The position numbers were made by a program, and so were the translations under genes. A DNA stretch of 64,000 nucleotides from assembly GCA_021234155.1 (NCBI GenBank), contig JAJEKV010000065.1, forward strand, positions 5,288,807-5,352,806, given 5' to 3'. The notes under the pieces are model-generated. The model worked only from the letters and a program-made list of their open reading frames with translations. It did no database searches and was not told the origin of the DNA. Position 1 is the stretch's first letter. Every line of letters begins with the position of its first letter. The stretch is from Isoetes taiwanensis (taxonomy: Eukaryota; Streptophyta; Lycopodiopsida; Isoetales; Isoetaceae). Positions 19,681 through 58,530 of this stretch are shown here, piece after piece.

Positions 19681-19732
19681 TTGATGTGTTAAAACAAATT
19701 TACATTCTTTGAAGTACTCCCAAGTAAAGTCT

Positions 19733-21334
19733 TGTGACGTTCCAAGTATTTATACGGTATATATATAAATACATTGACACGTCACCCAGTATAGATACGC
19801 CACCATGGGGTATGGTAACCTAGGGGGTTGACCTAAAAGGGATTTAATTAGCTATGTTAATTAAAACATTAAGGATAATAACCTATGATTTAGGAAATTA
19901 ATAATAATTAAGATAATTATGGTTTGGGAAGGCACCACCTGGCCAAACTCGATTGGCCAGCATGGGGATTGCTAATTGGATCCAATAAGGTGGATCACCA
20001 CCCCCTTATCAGCCAGTAACCAACCAGTTGAGCGCCCAAGGAGTAGGCTGGCGCCCCAAATTTTGAGACTTCACCAAATTCACTAAATCACCGCTAGTTG
20101 TTGCTGCCACCCTACTTGCAGCATCATGGAGTCCCCTCTCGATAATGGTTCCAGCCGAAACACGGGTTAGTAGTAGTTTAGCTTGTGTTTTGTAAGATAG
20201 TACTGTAGTACTCTTTGCTGATTGCCTTTGTTGAAATTAACCCTTCTATGGTAAGTAGGATTACAATTTAATTATGAATGGTACTTTGTTAAGGATAATT
20301 GATGTATCTATGAAGCAATTGGGTAACTTCCATTAAACAGGGGTTTAAAGGGGGGTAGAGACCTCTGAGCTCACATATGGTAGTATGCTCCTAGATAGAG
20401 CCCTGTAATATTCCCATTTGATGCGGCATGTGTACAAGAGACCACCAAGATTGCGTGTAGATGCTATGGTGCGGCTTAGCACCGGATAAAGGGACCAGTG
20501 GTGGTGAAGTGGGGTGGGGTCTTACCACGAACATAAAGGCTCGAGACTCCTCTGGTGGGCTAGGGCGATGGCCGAGCCCACGTGGGGGGCGGGTATGGGT
20601 CCCGACACTCCACAGGTGTAGAGGTGTGATCCGGTATGGAGCATCTTGCACTTTGAGTAGAATTAGGGTGAGTAAGTTGGGTGCGGATCGCGGGGGTCGG
20701 TGATGCGCACGTATTCTCTAGCTCACCCATGGAACCCTTTGTGATCACGGAAGGGGCGCTTCACGGCCCGGCCTCATCGGACCCGGGGTGTCATGAACCA
20801 CAGGTAGACTCAAGCGGGTGATACCTTGAGTTTGCGTCTCAGGAAGCCTATAGCGAAGCCATAAGCGTGAATCGACCCATCTGCAAAGTGTGCCTGGGAG
20901 GGGCGGATGGAGTGGACAACCCTAGCCGATGTTCTATGCCCGATAGCGCCATGCCAAGACTTCGGTCGCTGATCTCTTGAGGCTTAGCCGTCGGTCGATC
21001 CTCTCGGGTGGAGCGGGGGGTAGAACCTAAGGTTTGGGGTGTTTTCTTAGTTTTAGATGCATATTCTTTGCGTTGTTATTGGGATGGATCGCCACCCTTC
21101 GTGGTGGTTATTTATATATGATTTATGTTGTGTGCTAACCCTTGTATACATGCTTCCATGACGTAGGAGCCCCCCATGGCGTGGGCGAATGACACCTCCG
21201 TGTCCTTCGAAACATCTCTATTAGATGGATGGCCCGGGACGGAGGGCCCACGCTCATGGCAAGTTGGTTGCCATGGGAGGAAAGAATCCCGTATGTATAC
21301 GGTAGGGGTCGTATATATTCGGGGGGCGTCCGCG
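19733..21334 (+). repeat. 5' LTR of the chromovirus
   Basis: Matches the 3' LTR at 31,196-32,797 over its length. It starts TGTGACGTTCC at 19,733. Its 3' end is blurred (ggcgtccgcg, where the 3' LTR has ggcgtcaca). AT-rich blocks are identical between the LTRs (for example 19,862-20,010 against 31,321-31,469), while GC-rich blocks carry many indels. A TATA-like run (tatatatataaata) lies only about 25 bases into the LTR, so the real promoter position is uncertain. Confidence 0.93.
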
Positions 21335-21335
21335 G

Positions 21336-21347
21336 TGGTATCGAGCC
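21336..21347 (+). other. Primer binding site, initiator-Met tRNA type
   Basis: Directly after the 5' LTR the sequence reads TGGTATCGAGCC. The usual plant site complementary to the tRNA-iMet 3' end is TGGTATCAGAGCC, so this copy lacks one base. This is the expected place and type for a plant Ty3/gypsy element. Confidence 0.8.
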
Positions 21348-22118
21348 GTGATTTCGGTTGCTCAAAATCATAGCGACCAAACACTAACTTCGTTAGTTTG
21401 GTAGTTAGGAGGAGGCTAAGTTAGTGTCTTTGTTAGTCCTCTTTGATGTTTGGTTTTGTGCTAGGTTAAAGTAAAATTGTAGCTTTAAAAAGTTAGAGGC
21501 ATTTGGAGGCCCCATGTTTGGAAAGAGTTATACATTTTTATAGGTAGTTAAATGGAGGAGAAAGTGGTTCCATTGGATCGAGCGTACCCCAAATACCCTA
21601 GGACAGTCGTCGCTGGCGAAGAAATGGCCAAAGGATGGCCCGAAAGTCAACTCGGACGCCGCTTGAATTTTACCGCCTTGCAGTCGAGGTGGGAGAGCCA
21701 AATATCGGTCGGAAGCCTAATGCCGACTACCCGTCATGAATCAGCGGGCCCGAAAAGTCAACTGGAAGCCGCTTGCTTTTCGTCGACCCCGGTCGTGATG
21801 GGGCCGGCGTAGAATGCGGCCGGCGGCAGCCCAGGTATGTTTCGCGTATTTCCGCCGTATAAAAACTTTTTATAGAAAAAAATAAAAAATAAAAAGTTAA
21901 TAACGAAAATTTTAAAATTTCAAAAGTTAACGGGCCGTTATAGTTTTTCATTTCCGCTTTGCCTTGACGCCAGCCCGGCCGGAACCGGCCCGCCATCGCC
22001 GCCATGATTTGACCACGCCCGTGCCCGCCCTTGTGCCTCGCCAACCCTAAGCGCCTTCACTCGTCTTCCTACCCGGCCAAAGCCCTACGCTGCACTTCTA
22101 GACTTTAGTGCCATAGCC

Positions 22119-22651
22119 ATGGCCAATACCAAGAGTGCTCAGGACCCTCTACCCTCACCATGGCCGAGATCTATGCCTTGATGCGTAGGCATATAGTTCT
22201 TGACCGACTTTCATCGACATACTCTTGGGCGAGTTGGTGAGCCGGTTCGAGAACAATGATAGAATCCCATACCCCATCTACCACTTCTCAGGAGCGTTTT
22301 CGATCCGATTGAACTGCGCCCGGCTCCCTTACACCATGGTAGAACAGCGACTTGGTCATGATGTTAAATAAGTTCTATCCTCCCAGAATGTGAAGGTCAC
22401 ACCAGGAGGAGGACATAAATAAGGAGGCCGACCGTATGAGGAACTTGGCCAGGGAGGATGATAAATGGGAGATGGGGCGGGCGATCACGGCTGACTCGAG
22501 GAAGAACACCGGTACCTTGGGGATGGAGTCGTCGTTATTGATGGCCGGGCTATTGAACTTCCCCATACCGGTGGCATGAAGCCTCCCATAGCTTCATGTG
22601 GGGAGCCCCGATTCGATATCGGTCTGGATTACTTAGCGGCGATCAGTTGAC
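22119..22651 (+). pseudogene. First pre-gag ORF, N-terminal part, unrecognised
   Basis: The first good ATG after the leader is at 22,119 (context gccATGGCC). Protein-like segments follow in alternating frames: MAEIYALMRRHIVLDR, then FIDILLGELVSRFENNDRIP, PYPIYHFSGAFSIRL and later MRNLAREDDKWEMGRAIT. Frequent single-base slips prevent one continuous frame. These lead directly into the H3-like frame, so both may belong to one protein of about 400 residues with a C-terminal histone fold. I do not recognise the N-terminal family. Confidence 0.4.
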
Positions 22652-23356
22652 ATGGCCCGGCCCATTGTCGGTATTGTTGAACTTCTTCGCCGTGTAGCGG
22701 TGTATGGTATTATGCTCATGTTGAAGAAGACCTTAGGAGAGCCCGGGAGTTCGGGAAGAAGCGAGGGCGAGGATCGAGAGGAAGCGGGAGAAGGGCTCCC
22801 CGAAACAGCAGGACCCAGCAGGGCGAGGAGCATCGGGAGGTGGGGCCGCCCAATCCAAACAGGCAAGTATGGCGGAAGTAATCGGAGGAAAGCCGTAGCC
22901 GAAAGTCCGCGTCAATACAAGGAAAAAACTAAAAGATCGAGGGCTTTTGGGAAGAAGCGCAGCCCTCTCGGTAGGAGAAAGTGGGTGGATCGTCCCGCCA
23001 TTTGTTGGGGCCAAGGCGTGCACGCATCCGGGGGCCACCTCGAACCTGCTCCCACGAGGAAGCCCCATCGGTACCGGCCAGTCATTGCCGCTTTCTGGGA
23101 GATCCAAGTAAGTTTTGAAGTCGACCCAACCCGTCTGAGCCTCCTTCCAGAGAGGTTGGTCAGGGAGATGCCGCAGGGGAGTTCAAGACCGACCTCGCTT
23201 CCGGACTTTGCCATTTTGGCACTCCAAAAGGCTGCGGAGGCTTATTTAGTGGCACTTTTGGTGGCCGCCAAACCTTTCGCGATCCACGCCAAGAGGGTCA
23301 CTATCATGCCTAAGGATTTGCTTTTCGCCCACAGGATTCGGGGGGAGCATCCTTAG
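22652..23356 (+). CDS. Histone H3-like protein inside the retrotransposon
   Basis: The 234-residue frame ends in a histone H3 fold: KPHRYRP (137-143), an EI pair (150-151), LPERLVRE (165-172; H3 has LPFQRLVRE), FAILALQKAAEAYLV (186-200), AIHAKRVTIMPKD (210-222) and RIRGE (228-232), with the stop two residues later, where H3 normally ends. Two more H3 landmarks sit in neighbouring frames: LKST at 23,115-23,126 and GEFKTDL at 23,176-23,196. Short compensating indels therefore interrupt an otherwise conserved H3. The canonical tail (ARTKQTARKS) is absent; instead residues 70-112 are Lys/Arg-rich. Retention of HAKRVTIMPKD argues for canonical H3 over centromeric CenH3. It lies in sense orientation between primer site and gag. 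It could be a captured host gene with a chromatin-targeting role (inference) or a passenger pseudogene. Confidence 0.85.
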   Translation: MARPIVGIVELLRRVAVYGIMLMLKKTLGEPGSSGRSEGEDREEAGEGLPETAGPSRARSIGRWGRPIQTGKYGGSNRRKAVAESPRQYKEKTKRSRAFGKKRSPLGRRKWVDRPAICWGQGVHASGGHLEPAPTRKPHRYRPVIAAFWEIQVSFEVDPTRLSLLPERLVREMPQGSSRPTSLPDFAILALQKAAEAYLVALLVAAKPFAIHAKRVTIMPKDLLFAHRIRGEHP

Positions 23357-23379
23357 CATATTTTGTTGAATCTCCACAC

Positions 23380-23560
23380 TGTAAATATTTTTTTGGGATG
23401 TAATAAAAACTTTTTGTTTGTATTAAGATTTTTTTTTTTTTTTTTATATTTTGTGTTAAATCTGAAATTAGCGTCGGCATAATAAAAAGGGTTCAAAAGG
23501 ATTTTCAAAGTTCATTTCAATTGTTCTCTCTATTTTTTCTTGCTTCCTCCTCCTTCTAGC
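23380..23560 (+). promoter_or_regulatory. AT-rich spacer after the H3-like ORF
   Basis: Just after the H3-like stop come a possible polyadenylation signal (aataaaa near 23,402), a T18 run (about 23,428-23,446) and a pyrimidine-rich stretch ending ccttctag, then ATGG at 23,564. The arrangement suggests either a 3' end followed by a new promoter or an intron with a 3' splice site at 23,559. The sequence does not decide between them. Confidence 0.35.
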
Positions 23561-23563
23561 ACC

Positions 23564-24290
23564 ATGGCACAGACCTTCTCGCATGGTATCAAGACGGAGA
23601 GCATTGGGATCCGCAAGTGCCATTCGGCCTGTTGCGGCCCTTGCTATGCCAGCGCCTAGACCTCATCACCAATATGCAGCGGCACCCGGATTATGCCGGG
23701 TTCTTAGACTTTTAATGGAGGAGATGCTTCCTTTGTGTGTCCCTCTTGGGGATCCTCCCCAGTTGTATCTCGAGCGGGAGGTAGTCCGGGAGATGTTAGG
23801 GGGCGACACCCATGCGTATGATGTCTTTGAAGGAAGGCTTCGGATGGGGCAAACACCTGCCCGTTATGCGACATCGGGGCGGCAATATCTTGAGGTTGCC
23901 TTAAGCCTAGCCATCCTCATGGACCAATACGTTGAGGATGAAACTTTGCACTGTAGAAAGGCAAACTCCACGAATCTTCGAGGAGGAGATGATGAGCATA
24001 TAGGTATGGGCGACCGCGGTTGGAAAGCGATTAGCGGAGGAGATGCCACCACCACAGGGAACAAAGGCTGCGGCTTGTGGGGCTAGATGCCCTTCGGTTA
24101 TTTATCACCAAGAGGCGGGGAATATCTTCTTTTGGATGATATCATGCGGACTTATCACATGGTGGCGGATTTAAGCTTAGGCGTAAGGACCATGTGCTTT
24201 ACGAGGTTAGCGAAGTATTGCATGGATGATTTCATCGACTTGGCTCCTATTGAGCTTCCCGGAGGTGCGGCGGCTACTCGGTTCCGCTAG
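23564..24290 (+). pseudogene. Second pre-gag ORF, unrecognised
   Basis: Starts at ATGG (23,564) after a splice-acceptor-like pyrimidine tract. The main frame (from 23,583) runs 167 codons with protein-like content, including PPQLYLEREVVREMLGGDT and GRQYLEVALSLAILMDQYVE, and slips to another frame near 24,087 (LGVRTMCFTRLAKYCMDDFI). No domain is recognised. It is in sense with gag-pol and downstream of the H3-like ORF, so it belongs to the same cargo region. Confidence 0.4.
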
Positions 24291-25867
24291 GAGACCTTGC
24301 TACGGCCGGGGGGCGGTGATGCGAGGAAGGCCTCTCAACCCTCACCGGATGCCTTTACGGCTATGGGACCTCATGTTCCAAACATTAACATGGTTGAGGT
24401 TCCTTAGATTCGGATGAGGAGGGGGAGGACCTATACCATAATCTGCTCATTTGAAGGAAGAGCGCGAGGAACTTAAGGAGGAAGAAGTCCCTATGGACTT
24501 AGATAAGGAGGTGGCCCGCGTCGGGAGACCCGCAAAGGGAGGGTTTTGGGAAACCACCTCACTCGCTTCTTCTTATCGGCTTTTTTCGACGGGGGCAAGT
24601 TCTTTTTATAGCGAGATTTAGGGGGGAGGCTGAAGCTTCATGGTGGACCCGTCGTGCTATGTCCACATTAGCCGGGCACAAGAAGCTTCCCTATCGTACG
24701 TTTACTTATGTACACAAAATGAGCGGGATCTTTACGGCGGCCTTGGGGCAAGACATTGCGCCCTGGATGAGCATGAAGCTCCTTACGGCAGCCCCCTTGG
24801 CCGTTGCTTATCCGCCAGAGGTTGCTTCCATTGCGGCTGCCACCGTGGACCCAGGGGTGACTCTGCTATGACACCGACCGCCGCCACCACCTCCTCGGTC
24901 TACAAATGAAGAGGGAGGACCCAGTTCCTAAATAACTGTATCACGCATATTGTATTGCATATACATGTAGAATTTTGGTTTGGCAGTTTCTAGCCATTCT
25001 ATAGTTATGATATACCATCTCTTTATCAATTGTGATAATTGTTTCAATGAATACAATTGCAATTGTTCTCTTCCATGATGCGTTTTTCTATATGTTAGAG
25101 CTTAGGGCATAACGAAATTGTTCAATGTTCTATATTCATTTCTATCGTCTTACAGAAGAAACACTCGAGGAATATGAGGAGAGGATTACAGACCTGATAA
25201 GGAGGGATGATCGGGCGCTGACGGGACTATGGCCAAAGGTATGGGGAGTACAGGAATGGGGCCGAAGGTTACGAGATGGAACCCGCGCCACCAGGGGAGC
25301 CCTATGATGCAGCCAAAGGGATGGAGATAGTTAATATTCTCAGGGAACGAGCCTACGAGGACATGAAGCAAACTCTTCGCCGCACATGGGACTATTGGGA
25401 TATGTCCAGGCACGAAGCTTTCGAGGACGCCAATGACCACCTGTGGCAAATCTTCTATGCGTTAAGGAGGCTTTTCAATCTCATTATTAGCCCAATGCTA
25501 GATTGCCAATCTGTAATAGTCCAGGCCTGGGCACGATACAAGCTCGTTAGGGTTGTACGTGAAAGTGTTTGCTACTCGATCTTGTATCCATTTGCGAACC
25601 CCTAGGCCCGGTCTCTTCAGTTTTGTTGTTTTTGTATGCTGTATGTGAGTTAAACTTTAAGTCTCCGTGTATCAGGAATATCCTTGTATCATACTCTTGT
25701 ATCAACTTTTGCAAGTACTAAGGTGTGAAACTTTAATGAAACAACAGTTTTCTCTTGTAATAAGAATCTGGGCCATCATACTTTTTCTTGTATTCTTTCT
25801 CTAGCTGATCCAAAAATGACATGGTTGGGATACCTTATGTCACCATAAGTCGACTTATACCTTTTGA
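24291..25867 (+). other. Remainder of pre-gag region with short unknown ORFs
   Basis: Frames at 24,640-24,909 and 25,125-25,605 look protein-like in part (EETLEEYEERITDLIRRDD; RAYEDMKQTLRRTWDYWDMS; ANDHLWQIFYALRRLFNLI) but match nothing I know. 25,610-25,867 is AT-rich, 3'-UTR-like sequence before the gag start. This region accounts for much of the element's unusual length. Confidence 0.35.
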
Positions 25868-27230
25868 ATGCTGGATATAGACGGTGCACGCAACGCCGCT
25901 TGGCAGACGCCCTCAAATTCCAGTAGGCTAACACCTGAACAGGAACTTATGCTAATGAAAAGGCAACTAGGCGAGTTGCAAGCGTATGTGTTACATGCTA
26001 ATCCATTCCAGCATCCCCAAGAAGACAGACCGGAGTTACCTCCGCTCTGTAGAAGTCCACCTACACGTGACCATCTCCACACAGCCCGACTGTATACGCA
26101 CGGAGGGACCTCGTTCTAAACGTCGACGGAGTTCCTCTAAGGATAGCGCCACCTCCTCACCATCAGCCACTTCTGCGTCTTCTGAGTCGTCGGTATCAGC
26201 TGGTGACCATGCAAAGCGTCGGGATAAGGAATACCGCAAAACAGTTGATACCGCCATAACTAGTATATGGAAGAATAGGAAGCGCACGGTTGGCAGGGGA
26301 AATCTAAGGCGGACTGAATGCGAGTCTTGGTTGGACGAAATGAAAAGAGTTTGAGAAGTCCTATGGCATGGTGAAAAGGATCTGAGGAAAGGTTGCCACC
26401 ACGAACCTTGAGGAGGCTGCCCGTATTTGGTGGAAGGGCTATGCTAGAAGCCAAACATCACGGATAGAAGCGGATGCAAGTTTAAGAAAGTTTGCTAAAG
26501 CTTTCAAATTCGCACTATGTGCCCGTGCACACAAATGCCGACAAATTCGGACTTTCTATAGGTTAGAAGCAGAAGGGTATGTCGGTTCGGGCTTACAGCG
26601 ATGAATTTATGCGCTGAGTTTGTATGTACAGGTATGAATGAAAAAAGAGGCGGTGGAGGGCTACATTGAAGGGTTAGCCTGACAATCAAGCGAATGGTTA
26701 AAGGCCATATACCGAAATCGATTCGCGGTGAGGCTAAGGCATTGAGCCTCGAGGAGGACACCCAAAAAGAACCGATATCAGCGTCACGCCCCATACTTCA
26801 GCGACCCGGCCATCCACACCTTACAAACCCCTTTCGCCAAGTCGGGGCCCTCTCGTGAGAACTCTTATGGCCGTCGGGGGAAAAGTCACCTTCCGGACGG
26901 TAGACCGTCGCGGTTAATGCGGTAAGGAAGTTCGGAACCTCTTACTGATCTATTCCTAAAGAGGCGGGGAACAGCTCCGTAGAGATAAGGCATGCTCACA
27001 GTGCATGCGACACAGGCACTTTATGCGAAATTGTCCTTATGTCACGCGGACGCCCGGTGGCTATGGCCGACCTCATTTGGGGCGATCTTGGTCAACACAA
27101 CACTTTTGTCGGGGAGGAGGCCCAGAGCTACATTCGCAGTGCGTCTCATATCCTTGCGGCTATAGAAGCCGGCAATCTTTGAAAGTCGGCCTCTTTGTCA
27201 TTTCCACCATAGGTCGAGTACCACGGTAAG
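25868..27230 (+). pseudogene. gag: gag of the chromovirus
   Basis: An ATG at 25,868 opens a frame with a helical N-terminus (LTPEQELMLMKRQLGELQAY) and a Ser-rich, basic middle (KRRRSSSKDSATSSPSATSA). A CCHC zinc knuckle of the form C-X2-C-X4-H-X4-C (CSQCMRHRHFMRNC) is at 26,993-27,034, followed by a Gly/Arg-rich tail (TPGGYGRPHLGRSW). Between them the frame is lost repeatedly (26,350-26,990). The knuckle and its position before protease identify it as gag. In this family Gag forms the virus-like particle and binds RNA. Confidence 0.7.
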
Positions 27231-27234
27231 CCTT

Positions 27235-27540
27235 TTGTAATTCTTATGGATCACAGTACACATAATTTTGCTTCTCCTAGAATGGCCCAAGTCTTACGAC
27301 TTGAGACATTAAAGGTCCGAAGCCAGGGCACTGTCACCCTAGCCGATTGGTAAGGTCGGACACGCGCATGGCCCGTCGCATCAATCTCAAGATCACGGTT
27401 GCCGGGAGCACCGGTTGCTTTGGGTGCGAGTTGATGGATATCGGCAAATCGACCTCATTGTTGGTATGGAATTCTTGGCATCTGCAAAAGCCAACATAGG
27501 CTGCGAAGCGGGAAGTTACCTTCAAGCGCGACTAATGGAG
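27235..27540 (+). pseudogene. Degenerate aspartic protease
   Basis: The segment ILMDHSTHNFASPRMAQVLR (about 27,240-27,300) aligns with the retropepsin active-site region normally written D-S-G-x-T-H-N-F. The Ser-Gly after the catalytic Asp is disrupted here. The following CFGCELMDIG and NSWHLQK stretches are consistent with the rest of the domain in shifted frames. It sits between gag and reverse transcriptase, as expected. Confidence 0.5.
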
Positions 27541-27676
27541 CCAGCGTGACTATAAAGGTGCACCATTCAACCCTATCATGCAGTCTATGTCCATCGGGCG
27601 GTTAGATAAAGCTATCATGAAAGCTCCCCTGCGTGATTAGGCTTGCCTCCCTTGAGTCGGATGCTAAGCGAAGCAA

Positions 27677-29080
27677 GTGTCGATACCTTGCGGAGGGATT
27701 GCTCATCTTCTCCGAGAATTTGGTGATCTTTTCCCAGATGAGATCCAGAAACTTCCTCCTTTTGGAGGGGTAGAATGTGAAATAGCTTTAGAACCAGGTA
27801 CTAAGCCTACCAGCAAGGCCCCGTATGGTATGAGTCCTCGAGTTGGCGAGAACTCAGAAGCAACCGGGGAGTTACTAAACCTAGGTTTCATTCGACCTAG
27901 TGTTTTCGCCTTTTGGCACTCCTATTCTTTTGTTAAGAAAAGGGCCGGTTCGTTGAGGATGTGTATTGATTATCGGCAACTCAACAAGCATACCATCAAG
28001 AATCGCTATGCTTTTCCTAGAGCAGATGATCTAATGGATCAGTTGCAAGGGGCTAAGTATTTTTCAAAAATTGATCTACGCTCCGGCTACCATCAGATAC
28101 GGATTAAAAAGGAGGACATCCATAAATCTGCTTTTCGCACTAGATATGGGCATTATGAGTTCTGAGTTATGCCTTTTGGATTAACTAATGCCCTGACCAC
28201 TTTCATGCGGCCCGATGAATGATATCTTAGAGCAATACTTGGATGATTTTGTTGTTATTTTCTTGGCGACATTCTCATCTATAGTAAGACCCTAGGGGAG
28301 CATGAGAAACATCTTAGATTGGCTCTGCAAAAGCTAAGACGTCATCAGCTCTTTGCCAAGTTCTCCAAATGCAAGTTTGCCACTCCGAAGGTCGATTATT
28401 TGGGCCATGTCATTTCAGCAGAGGGAATTGCTACGGATCCGGCAAAGATAGAATTTTGTGAGGGAATGGCCTATTCGAATAATATTTAGAGGTCAGAAGT
28501 TTCTTGGGCCTAGTAGGGTATTATCGAAAATTTGTAAAGGATTTTTGCAAAGATTGCAGCCCCTCTTACAAATCTTACAAAGCATGAGAAAGTGAAAGAT
28601 TGGATGGAGCCTTTGGAAGACAAAAGTTCGAGGAGAGTTTCCGGTGACTTAAAGATGCCTTAACATCGCACCGGTTCTCACATTGCCCGATCTGGCGGGA
28701 TAAACTAGTGGCGATGGATGCGATAAAGATTGCCCGGTGGAGTCCCTAATGCGGGGAGGGAGGGTTATTGCCTATGATTCAAAGAAAATGAAGCGAGGCG
28801 AGCGATATCTTACCCATGATCGGGAATTGTTAGCCATTGTGCGGGTGCCTTGCGAATATGGAGACACTACCTTCTTGGTAGAAGATTCGATTGGATACGG
28901 ATCATCAAAGTCTTCGTTACTTATCCACCTAGCCGAATCTCAACCTCCATCAGAGAAGATGGATGGAATTTCTGGAGGAATATGATTTTGAGATTATGTA
29001 TAAGCCTGGCAAGCACAATGTGGTTGCGGATGCATTGTCACGCCATCCCTTGGTGACCCGAGTTCTACACTCACCAGTGA
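27677..29080 (+). pseudogene. pol: Reverse transcriptase and RNase H of the chromovirus
   Basis: 27,677-28,165 is one open frame with clear RT motifs: [21 protein letters not shown] and [16 protein letters not shown]. After a stop at 28,163 the next motif reads MPFGLTNA. The catalytic box is FLGD where FLDD is expected (near 28,258-28,270), followed by ILIYSKTLGEHEKHLRLALQ, KFSKCKFATPKVDYLGHVIS. RNase H follows in pieces (VIAYDSKKMKRGERYLTHDR, ELLAIV at 28,737-28,860). Altered active site plus frameshifts make this copy catalytically dead as sequenced. Confidence 0.85.
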
Positions 29081-29269
29081 GTTTGGAAAACAGATAGAGC
29101 AGACCTTGGCCCCGAATCACGGAGTTACGTGACATTTGGGATAGTTTGGCTAAGGAAGCTTACGCGGATAGGCCTTGAAGCCTTTCGATGCGTATAAGAA
29201 AAGGGCAACTTATTATATCACAAGGATAAGTTGTGTGTACACGAGACTTGAGTCGTAAGCTAATCCTCC

Positions 29270-30150
29270 CGACACACACAATGACCCTATATTTGGACAT
29301 GCGGGGTTTATGAAAACCTACTTTAAGATTCGCTCCGGCTATTTACGGCCTTCCATGAAAAAGGACATTGGCGGTACATTAAGCGATTGTCGGTGTGTCG
29401 ACAAACCAAAGGCTGGCGATTAAGGATTCCAGGCGAGTTGCAACCTACGGATGTGCCCAATGCCAAATGGGAAGTGATAACCATGGATTTCATCGTGGGC
29501 CTTCCGCGTACTCTCGTGGATATGATGCCTTAATGGTAGTGGTCGACAAATTGTCAAAAATGGCTCATTTCTTGCCATAATCGTACCACGGATCTGACCT
29601 TTGATCTTTGCTACGCTATTTGCCAAGGAGATCTTTGATTGCGCGGAATGCCACGAGTTATTATATCGGCGGGGATCCCAAATTTGTAAGTGCGATGCGG
29701 AAGGATTTCTTTGCCACCATCAAACCAAGCTTGCTATGAGTGCGGCCTATCATCCTCAAGCGGATGGTCGGACAAAGCGTACCAATCGCATTATAGAGGA
29801 TATCTTTGAGAAGTTATGTGTGGAGTAAGCAATCACAATGGGCGGACTACATTTATCTAGTCGAGTTAAGCCTATACTTGACATGAAGCGGGGAGTCTTC
29901 GAATGTCTCCCTTCATGATAAATTATGGTTATCAATGTCTTATTCGGACACATGGCATAACCCGTCTCTAAAGTAGAGGTTTAATGACAACTCCTCTTGG
30001 AGATGCAAGCTCACAGTCGAAGAAGTTAAGTGGCTACTTACTAGGCTGCGATCGTCGGAAGAGTGTAGCCGATAAGCCTGAGAACACCGCGCGCTTTCGG
30101 ATGGGTGAGTCGGTTTGGCTCAAGATTAAGGTAAAAGCAAGCCAAGCTTA
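29270..30150 (+). pseudogene. Integrase of the chromovirus
   Basis: The HHCC zinc domain is visible in pieces (GHAGFMKTYFKIR at about 29,298; LSVCRQTKG at about 29,386). The core has WEVITMDFIVGLP and ALMVVVDKLSKMAHFLP (first Asp), DPKFVSAMRKDFFATIK in a shifted frame near 29,673, and AMSAAYHPQADGRTKRTNRI. In the last motif the family has TERTNR, so the catalytic Glu appears to be Lys here. The second Asp motif is also damaged. In this family integrase inserts the cDNA; this copy would not. Confidence 0.8.
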
Positions 30151-30159
30151 AGATTGGCA

Positions 30160-30606
30160 AGCGCAAAAAGTTGCCCCTAGATGGGCTGGACCGTTCAAAA
30201 TTATTGGCGTGTTGGAAGCGGGCATATCGGCTTGGATTTGCCGCCCGCTTGAAGATCCACAAGGTCTTTCACGTGAGTCTTACGAAACAACACACCCACG
30301 ATCGGAGGAGGTTTTGGATACCCCAACCCTCCTCGAAATGGCGGAAGGAGCATTTGGAGATAGTACACGAAGCTCTTCTTGATCGAGCTTATAAACAAAC
30401 GAAGGACTCAAATGTTGCAATATTTGGTTAAGTGGAAGCACTTACCAGTTGAGGACGCTACTTGGGTAATGAAGATAGACCTTGACAAGCATTATCCGGA
30501 CTTCATGCGGGAATCTCAAGGCCGCACCATCAACGATGCTATCAACCCCGCAGCCGGCGGTAAGCTTGGAAGCTTGATTGCCAAGGGTAGCGCCTTAGAG
30601 GGGTAG
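30160..30606 (+). pseudogene. Integrase C-terminus with chromodomain-like tail
   Basis: After LKIHKVFHVS (near 30,250) the sequence reads EALLDRAYKQTKDSN and, in another frame, YLVKWKHLPVEDATWV (near 30,417-30,466), then HYPDF. This is the tail found in chromoviruses, related to chromodomains, which is thought to guide integration to particular chromatin. Its presence in an element that also carries an H3-like ORF is noteworthy. Confidence 0.75.
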
Positions 30607-31182
30607 ATGCATCCTAAATAATAGTTACCGATGATGAGATCACCTTGTGTTCTCTAGGGCGTGGTGTCTTGTCAATGTTGACTGACCCGGCTTGCTTGGA
30701 AGCATATAGTAATAGGGCGTTCATCTCGGCTATAATGGGAACTTCACCATTCCCTACGCTGCAATGAATTGCAAACCATAGACATGATAGGTTCCCTGCT
30801 AGATAGACTTTTCTTTTATTTAATTTAAGGGGGTGGTCCCTTCAACCACAATCTAATTATATATCACGTCTTGATATCTTGACATGTGCGGGCCGATTGG
30901 TGATGCGTGACCTACCCATGTTAGAGGGTTGATGATGGCCCGCTTCCTTCAGTTCTATTTTGTCTACACATCATGTTTTGTTGTTACTCTCATCTTGGTA
31001 TTGGACTTAGGTCCTTGAATTTTTGGTTATGATAATCATGTGAAATGCACCTTGGTGCTTAAAAGCATTTCAACTTCAAAGTTTTAATACATATTACCTT
31101 CGGAAATATGGGATTACCTTCCTTCATAATGTCATATCCTATAAATGTATCTAACCCTAATGCTGAGGACAACATTAATTCT
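30607..31182 (+). other. 3' untranslated region of the chromovirus
   Basis: Between the chromodomain-like tail and the polypurine tract I see no further coding region. The sequence is AT-rich with no recognisable motif. Confidence 0.5.
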
Positions 31183-31195
31183 AAGGAGGGGAGAA
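31183..31195 (+). other. Polypurine tract
   Basis: AAGGAGGGGAGAA immediately precedes the 3' LTR start (TGTGACG at 31,196), which is the normal primer site for plus-strand synthesis. Confidence 0.9.
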
Positions 31196-32797
31196 TGTGA
31201 CGTTCCAAGTATTTATACGGTATATGTATAAATACATTGACCGTCACCGATATAGATCGCCACCATGGGGTATGGTAACCTAGGGGTTGACCTAAAAGGG
31301 ATTTAATTAGATATGTTAATTAAAACATTAAGGATAATAACCTATGATTTAGGAAATTAATAATAATTAAGATAATTATGGTTTGGGAAGGCACCACCTG
31401 GCCAAACTCGATTGGCCAGCATGGGGATTGCTAATTGGATCCAATAAGGTGGATCACCACCCCCTTATCGACCCGATAACCAACCGGTTGGCCCCAAAGG
31501 GTAGTTGGCGCCCAAGGACTATTTGAGACTTCACCAAATTCACTAAATCACAGCTAGGCATTTTTTGCCACCCTACTTGCGGCATCATGGAAGCCCCTCT
31601 CGATACTTGGTTCCAGCCCGAAAACACGGGTTAGTAGTAGTTTAGCTTGTGTTTTGTAAGATAATCTTTGTAGTACTCTTCTTTGATTGCCTTTGTTGAA
31701 ATTAACCCTTCTATGGTAAGTAGGATTACAATTTAATTATGAATGGTACTTTGTTAAGGATAATTGATGTATCTATGAAGCAATTGGGTAACTTCCATTA
31801 AGCAGGGGTTTAAAGGGGGGGTAGAGACCTCTGAGCTCACATATGGTAGTATGCTCCTAGATAGAGCCCTGTAATATTCCCATTTGATGCGGCTGTGTAC
31901 AAGAGACCAGAATTCGTAGATGCTATAGTGCAGCAGCACCGGATAAGGGACCGAGTGGTGAAGTGGGGGTGGGGTCTTGCACGAACATAAAAGGCTCACG
32001 AGACTCCTATGGGCTGGGCTAGGCGATGGCCAGGCCACGTAGAGGGGCCGGGTATGGGTGCGACACTCCACAGGTGTAGAGGTGTGATCCGTATGGAGCA
32101 TCTTGCACTTTGAGTAGAATTAGGGTGAGTAAGTTGGAGTGCGGATGCGGGGGTGTGATGCGGCACGTATTCTCTAGCTCACCCATGGAACCCTTGTGAT
32201 CACGGAAGGGGCGCTTCCACGGCCCGGCCTCATCGGACGGGGTGTCATGAACCACTGGGTAGACTCAAGCGGGTGATACCTTGAGTTTGCGTCTCGGGGA
32301 AGGCTATAAGCGAAAACCATAAGCGTGAATCGACCCATCGCAAAGTGTGCAGGGAGGCGGATGGAGTGGACAACCCTAGCCCGATGTTCTATGCCCGATA
32401 GCGCCATGCCAAGACTTCGGTCTGCGCTGATCTCTTGAGGCTTAGCCAGTCGGTCGATCCTCAGCGGAGTGCGGTAGGGGTAGAACCTAAGGTTTGGGGT
32501 GTTTTCTTAGTTTTAGATGCATATTCTTTGCCGTTGTTATTGGGATGGATCGCCACCCTTCCGTGGTGGTTATTTATATATGATTTATCTTTGTGTGCTA
32601 ACCCTTGTATACATGCTTCAGCGGCGTAGGAGCCCATCGGCGTGGGCGAATGACACCTCAGGTGTCCTTCACCAGAAGCATCTCTCGTAGATGGCTCGGA
32701 GACGGAGGGCCACTGCTCATGGCAAGTTGGTTTGCCATGGGGGAAAGAATCCCCGTATGTATACGGTAGAGTCGATATATATTCGGGGGGCGTCACA
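31196..32797 (+). repeat. 3' LTR of the chromovirus
   Basis: 1,602 bp, beginning TGTGACGTTCC and ending CGTCACA (short inverted ends), followed by the target duplication AGTCT. It matches 19,733-21,334, with differences concentrated in GC-rich segments. Confidence 0.95.
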
Positions 32798-33365
32798 AGT
32801 CTCGGTGTAGATTGCCTTACATTCGTAAAGTACATTTCACCTGAGAGGGGCTATCTTCATCATTAATGCCACGATAGTGTATTATATTAGATATTCATTT
32901 GGTGCAAAGCAACACTCCTGGTTTGGATTTTGTGTCTAACAGATAAATCAAACATTGCATTATTTCACTTACTTTTGAATAACTCTTACAATCTGTCAAG
33001 GTCACTGTTGCTCCTAGTTTTGCAGCAAGTATTCTGGCGGGTGTTGTTCTACACCAAAGTGACATAGCGGTTATCGGTTTATAGATAAAATGATTCTTCG
33101 TCCAACAGTTATCTGAGCAGTATCACCTCGATGACCCACAGGCCATGAAATCGTAGCCTTTGTTGCCAAATATATTCTGCAAGTGCAATACTGCAAGGCC
33201 AAACATGCAGTCCATGTTCCTCTTCAATCACCTGCTCGACAAAACCACCGTAAGCAAGGAAGAAGACGTTGACGGAAAACCCAGTAGCTATACCTCGCTT
33301 ATTGACAGCGTTAGATGCGCCCCATCGTTCTGGTCTTCAAAAACATGCCTGGAAACTGTGATCAT
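32798..33365 (-). pseudogene. METTL23-like methyltransferase gene, interrupted by the retrotransposon
   Basis: Exons on the minus strand: 33,294-33,365 from the ATG (TVSRHVFEDQNDGAHLTLSI; donor GCGAG|GTATAG); 33,127-33,231 (VIEEEHGLHVWPCSIALAEY, then IWQQRLRF; donor TCGAG|GTGATA); and 32,973 to about 33,055 (ILAAKLGATVTLTD, the SAM-binding part, with one frame slip; donor AAAA|GTAAGT). This order is characteristic of METTL23-type protein methyltransferases. A fourth exon seems to start after CTCTCAG near 32,840. It runs into the AGTCT target site and, on the far side of the retrotransposon, continues as TWEYFKE at about 19,710-19,726, where the family has GLTWG. The insertion therefore probably split a coding exon. 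The C-terminal half was not found. Confidence 0.7.
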
Positions 33366-34159: not shown

Positions 34160-34208
34160 CCAAAAGCTTGAGATGTATTTTCAAGTACATGCACTTAGCA
34201 TTATAGGC

Positions 34209-34281
34209 GACTTCACTAGGAGGTTAAACTTGAAACCTCTAGTTTCATAGACCGACACCTTATCTAGTGGGCCATGAAGTC
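34209..34281 (-). pseudogene. tRNA-Arg-like unit
   Basis: Minus-strand unit opening GACTTCATGGCCC and closing TGAAGTC. The seven acceptor pairs are complementary. The anticodon loop reads CTATGAA and the B-box-like segment is degenerate (AGTTTAACC), so it is unlikely to be transcribed as a functional tRNA. Confidence 0.5.
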
Positions 34282-34555
34282 AAAGACTCATAGTAGTTCA
34301 GGAAGAACGACACTCTATCCAAAAGACCATGGTGGCGACTTCATCACGGTTGAATCTGGATCTAGTTCCAAAGACCTGCGTCTTATCCATTGGATCACAA
34401 AGTAAAAGGATCATAGTGTCTTATCCATTGGATCACGAAGTAAAAGGATCATAGTAGTTCAAAGGGTCATGGCTAAGATGAACACATCCATTTGGACGAT
34501 GAAGTCCAAATCAAATACTAGAGACATTGAAATGCATGTGCTTGGCATTGTAGGT

Positions 34556-34627
34556 GACCTCACCAGGGGTTGAACCTAGAATCGCCGGTTTGATAGATTG
34601 GTGCCTTATCCATTGGGCTATGAAGTC
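34556..34627 (-). pseudogene. tRNA-Arg-like unit, best-preserved arms
   Basis: 72 nt on the minus strand. The acceptor arms GACTTCA/TGAGGTC pair throughout (one G-T). The T-arm CTAGG-TTCAACC-CCTGG pairs fully, allowing one G-T. A-box TAGCCCAATGG and B-box GGTTCAACCCC are present. The anticodon stem has mismatches and the loop reads CTATCAA where the parent tRNA-Arg has CTACGAA-like sequence. Confidence 0.5.
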
Positions 34628-34958
34628 GAAGGCTCATAGTAGTTCATGAAGATAAACGCTTTATCCACTGGGCCATGAAGTTGACTTCATCAGGGAATCT
34701 GGTTCTAAAGATCGGCGCCTTATCCATTGGATCATGAGTAAATATGTCTCAAGCAACTATTATTTGACTTTGACTTTGTCATCTAATGGATAATGTGTTC
34801 ATCTTAGCCATGACCTTTTATGATCTGATCCTTTTATTTCATGATACAATGGATAAAGTGTCAGTCTTTAGAACTGGATCCAGATTCAACCCCTAATGAA
34901 TTCGGCACCATGATCCAATGGCTAATGAGTTAGTCTTCCTGAACTACTATAAGCCTTT

Positions 34959-35030
34959 GACTTCATGGCCCAATGGATATGGCAGTGGTCTACGAAATTG
35001 AAGATTCCAGGTTCAACCTTTAGTGAAGTC
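34959..35030 (+). pseudogene. tRNA-Arg(ACG)-like unit
   Basis: 72 nt. The acceptor arms GACTTCA and TGAAGTC are perfectly complementary. The anticodon loop CTACGAA keeps ACG. The A-box-like TGGCCCAATGG and GGTTCAACC are present, but the anticodon stem and T-stem are weak (mostly wobble pairs or mismatches). Confidence 0.5.
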
Positions 35031-35286
35031 ACCTATAATGCTAAGCGCATGCATTTCAAAATATATGTCAAACAACTACTATTTGACTTGGATTTCATCG
35101 TCCAATGGATAAAGTGTTCATTTTATCCATGAGCCTTTAAACTGTTATGATCCTTTTACTCCATGATCCAATAGATAAGGCACCGGTGACGGTCTTTGGA
35201 ATCGGATCCAGGTCAAACCCCTGATGAAGTCAACTTCATGGCCCCATGGATAAAGCGCCAGTCTTCCTGAACTACTACGAGCCTTC

Positions 35287-35358
35287 AACTCCATGGCCCA
35301 ATGGATAAGGCGTCAGTCTAGAAAACTAGAGATTCCAAGTTCAACCTCTGGTGAAGTT
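35287..35358 (+). pseudogene. tRNA-Arg-like unit
   Basis: 72 nt with acceptor arms AACTCCA/TGAAGTT (one mismatch), TGGCCCAATGGATAAGG and the segment ACTAGAGATTCC typical of tRNA-Arg(ACG). The anticodon position reads AGA instead of ACG. Confidence 0.45.
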
Positions 35359-35534
35359 GCCTACAATGCTAAGCGCATGCATTTGAAAATACATCTCAAG
35401 CAGCTAATATTTGACTTGGACTTCATTGTCCAATGCATAAGGTGTTCATCTTAGCCATGAGCCTTAGAACTACTATGATCTTTTTACTCCATAGTCCAAT
35501 GGATAAATATCTTCCTCAACTACTATAAGCCTTC

Positions 35535-35606
35535 GACTTCATGGCCCAACTGATAAGGCACTAGTCTACAAAACCGAAGATTCTAGGTTCAACCCTTTGT
35601 GAAGTT
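35535..35606 (+). pseudogene. tRNA-Arg-like unit
   Basis: 72 nt with GACTTCA/TGAAGTT arms, TGGCCCAACTGATAAGG and GGTTCAACCC. The anticodon loop reads CTACAAA, so the ACG anticodon is mutated. Confidence 0.45.
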
Positions 35607-35789
35607 GCCTACAATGCTAAGCGCCGCGTATTTTTAAAATCGTCTTGTGCAACTATTATTTGACTTGGGCTTCATCATCTAATGGATAAGGTGTTCATCT
35701 TGGCCAAGCCTTTGAACTAATATGAACTTTTACTTCACGATCCAATGGATAAGGCGCCCGACCTTTGAAAAACAATCAAATTAGGGCAT

Positions 35790-37868: not shown

Positions 37869-40800
37869 TTATTTTTGCTTGATCACATAACTTTCCAAAT
37901 CTAGCTGAAAGTTCATTTTAATCCAGAAGACAGAAACATTTTTCTTGCCATGTACTATCCTATTCCTAGCCTTCCAGATACTCCAGAGGGCCGTGAAGAC
38001 AATTGTATTAAGAAAAGCATCATTGTTTTGAATTTGCTTGAGCAGTTGACCATGATGTCTGTCAGGGAAATGATCACTAAATTTACAATAAAACCAGGAC
38101 CAGAAATTTGCAATCTTAGGACACTGAAAGATATGTTGCAATGATTCATTATAAGAGCAATTTGAATGGCAAGATGGATTCACAGTAGGAATTCTCTGAG
38201 AAATGGAGACCAGGTTAGGCAGGCTTTTCTGTGCAATCAACCAAATAAAGTAATTCACCTTAGGGGGACAGTAAGAGCACCAGATATTTCTATAAAGAGT
38301 TTTGCAATCATCATCTGAAATGGACCACTTGATCTTAGCCTTGGCAGAATTTTCTCTGTAGTTAAGGATAGCATAAACGACATTGACTTTATATTTATTC
38401 TGGCCATTAATTTTAAGAATAGCTCGACACTCATTACTAGTCAGGTTGTTGGCATGAGATAAAATATTTTTGAAGAATAGGTACAATGCCTTGTCACTGG
38501 AGGTACCATTAATAATCCTTCTAAGAGTGGTCCAGGAGATAATATGATCATTTCTATACAAATCCTTAATATGCCACTTTCTGTAGATCTTAGGGTGTTT
38601 CAAAGCAGGAGGATTTTCAGCACAGTCTTTGAAAGGGGGAGACCAGAATAGGGAGGAGTTCATATGCAGATCATTGATGTCAGATATGTCCAAACAACCC
38701 TGCACCATATTCCAAGCCTTGATCATGTTATGCATTAGGGGAGGTGTGTTTACGGGATGCGAGAGAATTGATGGCTGATTCGGGTAAACAATGCTTCTGA
38801 GATGGATGACCATCTAGATAAGACCTTTCAATCCAATATTTAATAAAATTAGATGCCATTGAGTTGCGGGACGAGGAGTTCTCCATATAAATTTACACCC
38901 GGGGCACAAGCTTGCGGATAGAGATTTTACTGACCCTAAACCACCATTTGACTTGGACCTAGTGGCGGATATCGGTTAATGAGTGAGAACCTCCCCAAAT
39001 GAAGTTTGGGATAGTTTTCTCCAACTCATTGTAAATTGTTTTAGGGGCAACAAGAGATGAGGAGAAGTAAATGTGAGATGCACCTAGGACCGAGTTTGCT
39101 ATTAGGTTCTCGACCCATAGATAATGAATTTACGAAAAGAATTTAGCTTTCTCTTGATCTTTTGAATAATTGGATCCCAAAGCCCCTTAATGTTAGGATA
39201 TAGGGATAAGGGCATCCCAAGCAGCTTAGAAGCTTGTAAAATATTTAAGACCTTGATGCCACAGATGGAAGTCTCAGAAGAGTCCCCTACAATAACACTT
39301 TTTTCTATATTTAAATAAATACGAAGCGGTGAAAAAAGATCAATAATATTTAAGAACTTGGCAATATTATGAGGATTGGAGTCGAGGAAAAGCGGAGGTG
39401 TCATCGCATCTTGAGATAAAATAAAGAGAACCTTTATTATCGGGGAAGATTTAAGCCTTGCAAGTTGCCATTATTTTGATGAAAATCCACAGCCTTGGTG
39501 AGCATTTCAGCAACAACCAGGAAAAGGTATGGGGCTAGAGGACATCCCTGTCTAACCCCTCGAGCCAATTGGAAAAAATTGGAAGGAGAGCCATTTACCA
39601 AGACAGCAGAATTTGCCATTGAGTTTAAGCCAAGAATCAAGGAAATAATCTTGGAGTTGAAGCCAATTTTCTCTAAAGCTGACAGAATCAAAGGCTCTTT
39701 TAAAGTCTAGCTTTAAGAGCACACAATTTTGAGCAGAATACCTATTCCAATGCAACCCCTCCATGGCTACAATGTAATTATCCAAAATAAATCTGTTGGG
39801 CAAGAAAGCAGACTGCTTGATATTGATTTGTTCCTGAAGAAAATGCTTGATCCTGTTGGCAATTAGCTTGGCACAAATCTTATAAGAGGAATTGGTCAGA
39901 GAGATTGGCCTCCAATCAGGAAAAGTTAAAGGCCTATCTACCTTAGGAATAAGGGTAATGAAACCTGCAGAGATAGAGGAGTGAAGATGCTCAGATCTCC
40001 AAAAGCCATGAACCATCTTAGTGATATCATCTTTGAGAATATCCCAGAATTGCAAATAGAATTCTGGAGGTATCCCATCTAGTCCAGGTGATTTCCCTTT
40101 GCTGAAACTCATGATTACCTTGTAGATTTCTTGCTCAGAGGGGACTGAGGCAATCGAGTCATCCATCAGGCTAACAGAATTTGGATTGATTTGGTCTATC
40201 AGGGAAATAAAATCATCTCTTTTTGAGGTCGAGTTAATCATGTTATTAGCACAATTACTAAAAAGAGAAGCATATTTCTCCTGGAAAAAGAACTTGATGT
40301 CTTTGGGGCTATCAATAGTAGAGCCATTATCAGAAGAAACATGAATGATGGAATTATTGAGAAGCCTATTTCTAGCAGCTCTGTAGAAAAATTTTGAGCT
40401 TCCCAGATCCATTTCTTTATTGAATTTGATTTTACATTTAATTGCATAGCTCTTGGCCTCCATTTCCTCAATTGATTTAATTTTCTTTTCCAGAACTTCT
40501 TCCCCAATTTGAAGGTTAATGTCATAGGGATGGGAGTGCAAGAGAGCTCTGATATTTCTCATTTATTCAAGATAGCAATCTTTCTGCCTGTGTTTCTCTT
40601 TGAATATTGCTTGAGACCAGTTTTTGATCCATGATTTGACCTGCTTAATCTTGGAGTAGAATACTTTCATAGATTGGTGACCATTGGGATAAATATTTGC
40701 ATTCAACTGCCTTTTGAGAAAGGTAGAAAATTTTGAACTCTTGACAGAACTTTTCATTTTGCAGGAGGGAGCAGTTAAACTTGAAGGGAATATTACCCTC

Positions 40801-41530
40801 TCTTGGAAGATTCAGAAGATGCTTAGTATGGAGGAATTGAGGCTGATGGTCAGAGATAGATATGGATTCATCACTGACCACATAACAATTATCCCAGAAA
40901 GAGTTGGATGAATTGGAGACATAGAACCTGTCAAGGGCACAGAAGACTCTACTTGAGTTTTTTTGCTTATTTGACCAAGTGTAGATAGCAGTCGAGGAGG
41001 GAACATGAATCAGATTAGAGTCAGAGACCATGGAATCCCAGTTTGCTCTCTCAGTGACAGTCATATTTATTCTGTTGCCCAGCTTCATATCCCAATTAGG
41101 GGTATTATTAAAATCCCCAGCTACAATCCAATCAATAGCAGGTTGGGAAGAAATCCAATGATTAATTTCTGGCCATAATAATTCTCTCTCCTTGGGACAT
41201 GTTGGAGCATAAATATTGAGAACACCAAAGCTGGAGTTGTTAATAGTAAAAACTACAGCCTGCCAACATTTACTAGGGCTGTTATAGAAAGAGGCTTGAG
41301 ACAAGGACTTCCAAATCATAATAATCCCCCCACACGTGCCAGTGGACTCAATCCAAATAGATGAGGAACCTGGAAAGATCCAATCAGCCAAACTAGAGCT
41401 CTCAAATTTAGGGAGCTTGGTTTCTTGAAGAAGGATAAGGTCGACCTTATCTTTGTCTAAGCTGAGAGATCACTCTTCTTCTCTTGATGGGGCCTTTAAT
41501 CCCCCTGACATTCCATGTTATTATCTTCAT
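37869..41530 (-). pseudogene. L1 ORF2: endonuclease, reverse transcriptase, zf-RVT-like domain
   Basis: Starts at the ATG at 41,530 with MKIITWNVRGIKGPI. Endonuclease motifs follow: LQETKL, VAGDFNNTPNWDM, ALDRFYVS, SDHQPQ (to 40,645). The RT has SPGLDGIPPEFY, LTNSSYKICAKLIANRI, QSAFLPNRFILDN, LKLDFKRAFDSVS and GVRQGCPLAPYLF (40,562-39,437). The A-D-D catalytic box near 39,405-39,420 is out of frame by one base. The C-terminal part (38,813-37,869) has the zf-RVT pattern: NIWCSYCPPKVNYFIWLIA, CSYNESLQHIFQCP and LWSIWKARNRIVHGKK. Total span 3.66 kb, normal for a plant L1 ORF2. Confidence 0.88.
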
Positions 41531-47699: not shown

Positions 47700-48344
47700 A
47701 CTACACAGCCATAACCACGTTTTACTGCAGCAGGTATTTCATTTTAGTCCTGCAGTGTTCTATTGTATATATGGGGATTGGTGAGGGAATTTTTTTGTAT
47801 ATAAACCAACATTTAGTGTCTCATCGTCTCTTTCTTAACTCTCCTAAATGACCTTGCATGTTTGCAAAATGAGACAAGCTAATTCGCAAAGGAAATGACC
47901 ACAATCCTGCAAATTCCAGAAATTTCAAGATTACGTCCTTTTACAATATTGCAAATAGTAAACTGCAATCTGTGCTTGTAAATGCATGAATAAAAAACAA
48001 ATGTGGGCAAGAATAACAGGCATCTACCAAATCAGCTAAATAGATAAAACAATGAAGCACCACCATCATTGGCAAAGTATGACATTGGCAAAGTACGACA
48101 AGCTTGATAACTAGAGGCCCAATATGTAGGATTACCATGGAGAATAGAATAGAATATGGAAATGTTGGCATATGAATCCCATCCTTTGGGAGATCTATAT
48201 CCTGCCATAGAACAAATAGTTTTGTGCTCAAACCTTTTAACTTGAATGATTTTAAAATATGAATTAGTGCACATCGTATATCAAGCAGAGGCCCTTCTAT
48301 GTAAAATTGCTCTTTCTTCTTGTCAATGCTTGAATTCCATTAGT
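47700..48344. other. 3' flank of the ACR-type gene, nothing else recognised
   Basis: Probably 3' UTR followed by intergenic sequence up to the CT tract. The short ORFs here look like chance. Confidence 0.4.
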
Positions 48345-48382
48345 CTTTCTCTCTCTCTCTCCCTCTCCCTCTCCCTCTCTCT
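48345..48382. repeat. CT-rich tract at the LINE 5' junction
   Basis: A run of ctctct interspersed with ccctct immediately precedes LINE coding sequence. Together with the (CT)45 tract at the other end it frames the element. Confidence 0.85.
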
Positions 48383-48383
48383 G

Positions 48384-48826: not shown

Positions 48827-48850
48827 GAAAAATGGGAGGCACTCAGGATA

Positions 48851-58440: not shown

Positions 58441-58530
58441 GGCACGCCCATAGAGCTCGGGCCATAGCGGAAGTAAGTGGGCAATGCTCACATTTTGTAA
58501 TTTGCCTCTAGTAATATAAATATGCCGCGT

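Follow-up and report, generated by a model that had tools for sequence, protein, structure and literature searches.

An old chromovirus gene of Isoetes taiwanensis encodes a histone H3 core fused to an orphan domain

Does a retrotransposon of a lycophyte own a histone gene, or does the H3-like frame found inside one copy only record a stray insertion? The question was raised by a 64,000-nucleotide stretch of the Isoetes taiwanensis genome (the window), in which the initial annotation had placed an H3-like protein at 22119-23356, in sense between the primer site and gag of a chromodomain LTR retrotransposon. The H3-like frame is real. The interval 22637-23356 matched PDB chains with a phmmer E of 4.8e-20 and the Pfam Histone family at 3.7e-14, far beyond chance; the frame contains the landmarks KPHRYRP, LPERLVRE, FAILALQKAAEAYLV, AIHAKRVTIMPKD and RIRGE and terminates at H3's own stop. 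Two further landmarks reported in shifted frames were also recovered, LKST at 23115 and GEFKTDL in the frame 23119-23313. The location was likewise borne out, with LTRs, primer binding site, gag, chromodomain and target-site duplication all found, as listed here for the window copy.

19728..19732, no strand: 5' target-site duplication, AGTCT; an identical AGTCT lies directly after the 3' LTR
19733..~21332, +: 5' LTR, beginning TGTGACG; its 3' edge is placed here only to within a few bases
21336..21347, +: primer binding site of tRNA-Met type, one base short in this copy
22119..23356, +: ORF1, encoding an orphan N-terminal domain followed by a basic linker and the H3 core; disrupted here, 420 open codons in other copies
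22637..23356, +: open frame of 239 aa with the H3 remnant; Pfam Histone 3.7e-14
23060..23353, +: H3 core, finishing at the H3 stop; phmmer E 4.8e-20, 52% identity to host H3
23564..24930, +: ORF2 remnant without Pfam match; 466 aa in open copies such as L018:4077-5474
25150..25605, +: ORF3 remnant; open copies, e.g. L013:5664-6158, have about 147-165 aa
25868..27667, +: gag region, broken in this copy; in L018 Pfam recognises Ty3_capsid and Retrotrans_gag
27668..28489, +: reverse transcriptase in two pieces in different frames; Pfam RVT_1 1e-10 and 2e-8
29327..30520, +: integrase region with C-terminal chromodomain (~30330-30520); Pfam Chromo 7.7e-8, open version in L071
31196..32797, +: 3' LTR, pairing with the 5' LTR
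32798..32802, no strand: 3' target-site duplication, AGTCT

The element spans 19733-32797 with the 5-bp AGTCT duplication on both flanks, and its LTRs are 91% identical, their alignment of 1641 columns containing 67 mismatches and 85 positions with gaps. The LTR of the sister copy L009 closes with ...GCGTCACA, one base ahead of the primer site; the primer site TGGTATCAGAGC was found exactly in 14 of 20 other loci and with no more than two errors in 16 of them. Paired LTRs, target-site duplication and primer binding site identify an LTR retrotransposon. Its gag and reverse transcriptase were identified by Pfam, and its integrase and RNase H by eye from the L071 frames, unscored. A chromodomain at the integrase C terminus, seen both by Pfam Chromo and in the open L071 frame, makes it a chromovirus of the Ty3/gypsy group. 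When this chromodomain (EIVPEALLDR...LVKWKHLPVEDATW in L071) was aligned by eye to HP1, the first and last aromatic cage residues were found to be replaced by I and L. The tRNA-Met-type primer site and the missing cage residues, the latter judged by eye, do not fit clade Tcn1; according to the consulted part of a chromovirus survey, the tRNA primer site is mostly absent from Tcn1 and the cage is present in 95% (PMC6317226). A guess at Tekay was dropped because the same part of the survey gives Tekay, like Reina and CRM, from seed plants only, and it describes Galadriel as widely reported in Tracheophyta (PMC6317226).

Ahead of gag the element has three extra genes, ORF1 and the conserved orphans ORF2 (~466 aa) and ORF3. 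Both orphans lie between ORF1 and gag, and neither gave a Pfam match above cut-off. Elsewhere in the window, by eye, a LINE-like element whose open frames resemble an endonuclease (370 aa) and an RT (584 aa) was noted at 48344-52100 (+), LINE-like fragments with RT-like and endonuclease-like frames at 37869-41469 (-), and a second Ty3/gypsy-like element with long RT/integrase-like frames, of 628 aa and others, at 54400-62806 (-). A cluster of imperfect repeats, both direct and inverted, with a unit of 328 bp lies at 34166-35755.

The main alternative considered at the outset was a one-off passenger, that is, an H3 pseudogene that the window copy had transduced or received as an insertion, as its broken frame and the low identity of its H3 part to host H3 (only 52%) would suggest. 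The assembly searched has 1,658,258,908 bases in 1,110 contigs. With the DNA of 22119-23356 as query, 1,173 candidates gave 40 scored matches, one of them the window; 37 of these matches were full length and, the window itself excepted, they showed 72-84% identity. In other copies this stretch forms a single open frame of about 420 codons, and the boundaries 22119 and 23356 proved to be exactly those of ORF1 in the family. When an ORF1 protein, P0001, was used as query, scoring of the best 100 out of 12,240 candidates yielded 101 matches with identities of 78-100% (the final two rows being one copy in two frames); by our count, 63 of the 101 rows lacked an internal stop. Such top-scoring copies make the family as a whole look more open than it is; a strict openness test was passed by 10 of 39 loci, window included.

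The rest of the element accompanies ORF1. At 20 other loci, which include L009, the 5' LTR was present within 7.6 kb in 16, the leader in 17, the ORF2 region in all 20 and gag in 13, and the third region was at least partly present in 17. This fixed order of LTR, primer site, ORF1, ORF2 and gag, behind different 5' flanks, refutes the reading that ORF1 belongs to a host gene family or owes its placement to coincidental annotation, with elements only in the vicinity. No supporting point was found for that reading, the host H3 genes being separate from the element and 96-98% canonical, and we give it next to no probability. ORF1 is a genuine, old gene of this large chromovirus family, an element abundant in the genome; it has a 420-aa product and is strongly supported as a real gene.

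The low identity of the window copy can be traced through its sister. Over 97 residues the window H3 part is 52% identical to host H3; its identity to the H3 part of L009, on contig C941, is 59%. Ahead of the 5' LTR of L009, 216 bases match the window at 208 of 217 columns, so both contigs show one and the same insertion event, either as two alleles or as duplicated copies; unlike in the window, ORF1 of L009 is open. Identity between the two is 97% in the third region (GC 0.43) and 84% in ORF1 (GC 0.56). Over 19733-26000 the words CTG, CAG and CCG were disturbed in 57-66% of cases, CG-containing words in ~35-49% and many AT-rich words in 3-10%, whereas in the control pair, L013 versus L009, CAG, CTG and CCG stood at 37-38% with no such gradient toward AT-rich words. 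The differences probably reflect basecalling error at CHG-methylated repeat sites or mutation there, and error is favoured: the damage is probably largely sequence error, because L009 is open and the differences concentrate at CHG sites. Damage concentrated at CTG, CAG and CCG also speaks against a passenger. The assembly paper, in the part consulted, gives 1,658.30 Mb in 204 scaffolds and 909 contigs, Nanopore v9.4.1 reads, and processing by racon, pilon and LR_Gapcloser (PMC8566536). Methylation-linked Nanopore errors are suggested in repeats, and apparent decay elsewhere in the assembly may be inflated. For ORF1 itself the window copy is a bad witness; other copies are open, with a nearly canonical H3 part.

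The ORF1 product consists of an orphan N-terminal domain of ~235 aa, a variable basic linker and an H3 core. The initial annotation had described a canonical H3, which holds for the core but not for the protein. From KPHR to RIRGE the core can be aligned to H3 without gaps, and residues 307-419 of P0001 align gap-free to H3.3 (best PDB chain 7ux9_E, E 2e-52). The canonical H3 tail with its K4, K9, K27 and K36 contexts is absent, and ~320 other residues, unlike the H3 tail, stand in its place. Stop-free cores were obtained from 32 of 46 loci; 31 show 84-89% identity to host H3, and one, frame-shifted, 68%. Relative to host H3, at least 80% of the 32 share Y54F, E59Q (or D), S86T, S87F, V89I, G102A, E105G, T107A, I124L and Q125A, as well as altered residues at R134. 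The host residue is retained in at least 90% of the 31 distinct cores at 84 of the 98 positions of the core. In 39 of 40 matches K36 is replaced by R (6 of the 46 loci gave no match).

Residues for DNA contact and the H3-H3 interface were presumed rather than computed. Those we take to contact DNA are host-like in 28-31 of the 31 distinct cores, except for Y41, which is kept in 23, the others having F as in the seed-plant H3.1 compared. Positions presumed to form the H3-H3 interface are host-like in 29-31 of 31. An origin from CENH3, whose hallmarks are a longer loop 1 and a divergent alpha-2, was rejected, since the element core has the same length as H3, the canonical FKTDLRFQ loop and an otherwise ordinary H3 sequence. 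The main family carries an ARKS-like motif, VARKSG, which we take to resemble the K9/K27 context; the motif reads VAHKS or VAHKA in L064, L066 and L068 and is absent in L065. Because it differs or is missing in these subfamilies, a histone-tail mimic is not general, and ARKS mimicry as a general mechanism is weakened.

The N-terminal domain resembles nothing found in these searches. Its ~235 residues belong to no Pfam family, its profile reached a best E of 0.24 against PDB chains, no protein matched the N-terminal part of ORF1 at E <= 0.001 among 3,818 candidates, and one scan of viral contigs yielded no relatives. Gag similarly had no protein match at E <= 0.001 among 4,881 candidates. With full-length ORF1, 5,203 matches were obtained outside the host genome (7,928 candidates scored, the best 120 listed). 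None of these 120 covers more than 63% of the query, and the nine that were read all contain at least two H3 units and lack the ORF1 N-terminal domain.

A dN/dS comparison across copies, proposed with the initial annotation, gave a clear answer: ORF1 is under purifying selection and does not evolve neutrally. For this purpose 16 of 39 loci were picked by hand for a colinear ORF1, and the ends were found by script in 14 (L015 and L024 were dropped); 4 of the 14 contain stops, which were treated as missing, and L025 contributes a short frame-shifted stretch that inflates dN. Mean dN/dS over the 91 pairs was 0.115 for the whole of ORF1, and 0.072, 0.098 and 0.216 for the H3 core, the N-terminal part and the linker. 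In every part dN was lower than dS in 91 of 91 pairs, with mean dS of 0.41-0.56. The comparison values were 0.103 for gag (5 of 20 loci open), 0.098 for ORF2 (3 of 20) and 0.077 for ORF3 (11 of 20), so that selection on ORF1 is as strong as on gag. Mean DNA identity between copies barely differs, at 87.2% in ORF1 versus 84.6% in the non-coding leader, and the case for constraint therefore rests on the codon pattern. Selection on this scale means that the ORF1 protein matters, although the mechanism is not thereby given.

Whether every copy carries the H3 frame was also asked, and the answer is family-wide presence with some exceptions. Among 101 gag matches, at least 36 have a listed ORF1/H3 match 1.5-9 kb upstream on the same strand, a lower bound set by the ORF1 matches listed. 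From the other 65, 24 were drawn at random and the first 10 read at the expected place: eight contain H3 and two, L080 and L081, have none in the 451 bases there. At L080 (C908:5553901-5554351) the place of ORF1 is taken by LTR-like sequence, suggestive of a deletion, of a nested insertion or of a subfamily that lacks ORF1; in the 451 bases read at L081 nothing was recognised. With no H3 seen there in two of ten copies, a subfamily without ORF1 may exist.

How old the association is can be judged from a second family on contig C1014, in which the order ORF1-ORF2-gag-RT is kept. Amino acid identity to the main family is 36-44% for ORF1, 39% for ORF2, 44-48% for gag and 74-75% for RT; ORF1 is spread over two frames there, and its H3 part is open. 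The C1014 core differs from those of the main families by a pN of about 0.10 and a pS of 0.79-0.96, synonymous sites being saturated. Also on C1014 (L069, 349500-352899, minus strand), a chromovirus-like element adjoins the divergent H3 element, with 46% identity to the main family in gag and 65% in RT. Taken together, the 40 DNA matches, the 63 of 101 open rows, a dN/dS of 0.07 in the H3 core and the second family refute the passenger pseudogene, which is left as very improbable.

The H3 phylogeny that had been called for gave a divided result. An unrooted tree sets the main element cores apart from host and seed-plant H3, but places the C1014 core with the host and seed-plant H3s and not with the remaining elements, at a support of 90; the grouping of host with seed-plant H3s itself has 97. 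Because of this grouping, the tree alone would permit a separate capture. The N-terminal domain, ORF2, T107A and I124L are common to C1014 and the main family, and for that reason argue for a single old acquisition of H3 by the element lineage. The host core has Y41/E77/S87/L90 in 6 of 6 host loci examined (L055-L060, out of 15 intronless host genes listed). The two H3.1 sequences of seed plants used for comparison have F41/D77/S87/A90, unlike Isoetes host H3. E77 occurs in 27 of 32 element cores and is absent from the three seed-plant H3s compared; being common to the host and most element cores, it fits a capture within the lycophyte host's lineage.

What such a protein might do was considered from its sequence. 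The initial annotation had suggested that it could modify or mark chromatin, for integration or for escape from silencing. The reading we favour, at somewhat better than an even chance, takes ORF1 as a genuine old gene under purifying selection whose product is a chromatin-incorporated H3 fusion with the N-terminal domain as a platform. The protein would enter the nucleus, its intact H3 fold would pair with host H4, and it would be incorporated into nucleosomes or bound to chromatin as an H3-H4 dimer. The histone part would then be the anchor and the fused domain the payload, hanging off the nucleosome as the element's own platform. That platform could tether Gag or integrase complexes to chromatin, and element DNA could, in addition or instead, receive nucleosomes with a tail not normally markable, given K36R and the replaced H3 tail. 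It would be the viral-histone strategy employed by a retrotransposon. This is the simplest reading because the core keeps the presumed contact and interface residues and the N-terminal domain is conserved and unrelated to H3; either tethering or shielding would produce the observed selection.

A more specific version is possible but doubtful. Here ORF1 would provide a private mark: a long-owned H3 variant in host or element nucleosomes, whose orphan domain or H3 would be the landing mark for the cage-less integrase chromodomain. A retroelement would in that case write the chromatin that its own chromodomain reads, and the link between ORF1 and the chromodomain is only an idea.

Two other functions would leave the protein outside nucleosomes. 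ORF1 could be a structural or condensing particle protein, its H3 core coating RNA or cDNA in virus-like particles. Histones condense DNA generally, the linker is basic, and ORF1 is co-retained with gag and two more orphan ORFs, all of which would suit such a role; packaging, however, needs no H3-H3 interface, yet the positions presumed to form it are kept in 29-31 of 31 cores, and we consider this function rather unlikely. ORF1 could also be an undeposited decoy that starves silencing by binding ASF1, CAF-1, HIRA, DDM1 or H3K9 methyltransferases. The resemblance of the main-family VARKSG to the K9/K27 context would fit, but other subfamilies have not kept this motif, and a decoy has no need of the DNA-contact arginines (positions again presumed), yet they are kept. 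The core changes G102A, E105G, T107A, I124L and Q125A are in its favour, as are the changed residues 86-89, which fall in a region tied to the assembly pathway in the consulted part of a viral-histone review (PMC9145170). On balance a decoy also seems improbable to us.

DNA-virus histones, a fungal transposon H3 and extra 5' ORFs of chromoviruses are already known. The closest transposon case is H3L of a hAT DNA transposon in Pyrenophora tritici-repentis, as described in the part of the report consulted (PMC3538342), in which an H3-like ORF was likewise multiplied by an element, ESTs were found and chromatin effects were considered; an H3 carried by a transposon is therefore not in itself new. 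The carrier of H3L, unlike that of ORF1, is a DNA transposon with inverted repeats in 26 very similar, apparently recent copies, and H3L is described as a transduplication and a separate ORF (PMC3538342), whereas the H3 of ORF1 is fused to an orphan domain. The ORF1 copies, by contrast, are deeply diverged, under purifying selection and in an LTR retrotransposon.

In position, ORF1 resembles the additional 5' ORFs (aORF/eORF) of Tekay group 2 in sunflower and of RIRE3, RIRE8 and Retrosat-2 (PMC11728184, in the sections consulted). The sunflower aORF is in sense, ~400 aa long, located between the 5' LTR and gag, conserved in hundreds of copies and predicted to be nuclear. It has no known domain, as is the case for most such ORFs in those sections (PMC11728184), whereas ORF1 ends in a near-canonical H3, and two more ORFs follow ORF1 before gag. 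Acquisition and retention of a host-type domain is paralleled by the 2-ODD (m6A demethylase-like) additional ORF of a Gypsy family in Phalaenopsis, although 2-ODD is an RNA-acting enzyme and not a chromatin protein (PMC9289625). The same study screened 121 angiosperm genomes, with lycophytes outside its range, and found 15 extra domains in LTR retrotransposons; its section 12 does not name a histone among them (PMC9289625). The word histone does not occur in a review of additional ORFs (PMC7264820) or in the main text of the Isoetes taiwanensis assembly paper (PMC8566536), the word retrotransposon is absent from the main text of the viral-histone review (PMC9145170), and no retrotransposon-encoded histone appeared in the titles or abstract openings of the matches listed from open-licence PubMed Central.

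Viral histones are the other comparison. They include the bracovirus H4 proteins CvBV-H4 and CpBV-H4, the single H3 of xenomavirus, and those of Marseillevirus and medusavirus, and some have a longer N-terminal part (PMC9145170, in the part consulted); bracovirus H4 joins host nucleosomes (PMC9145170; PMC5423620, each as consulted). All of these belong to DNA viruses, whereas ORF1 is carried by an LTR retrotransposon and fused to an orphan domain of ~235 aa. The integrase chromodomain of chromoviruses, also present in the ORF1 element, reads chromatin, whereas ORF1 would supply it. For cage-less chromodomains the partner is given as unknown in the consulted part of the survey (PMC6317226), and ORF1 offers a handle on what those of plant chromoviruses bind, as well as on the role of the 5' additional ORFs. 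It is a naturally occurring fusion, maintained by selection, between a core histone and a foreign domain, and if the favoured reading is true, a genome parasite may make its own chromatin building block. As a strongly selected, retrotransposon-encoded core histone with a novel domain, ORF1 joins both the 5' additional ORFs of chromoviruses and, alongside viral histones and H3L, the histones encoded by parasites and transposons, as their retrotransposon case.
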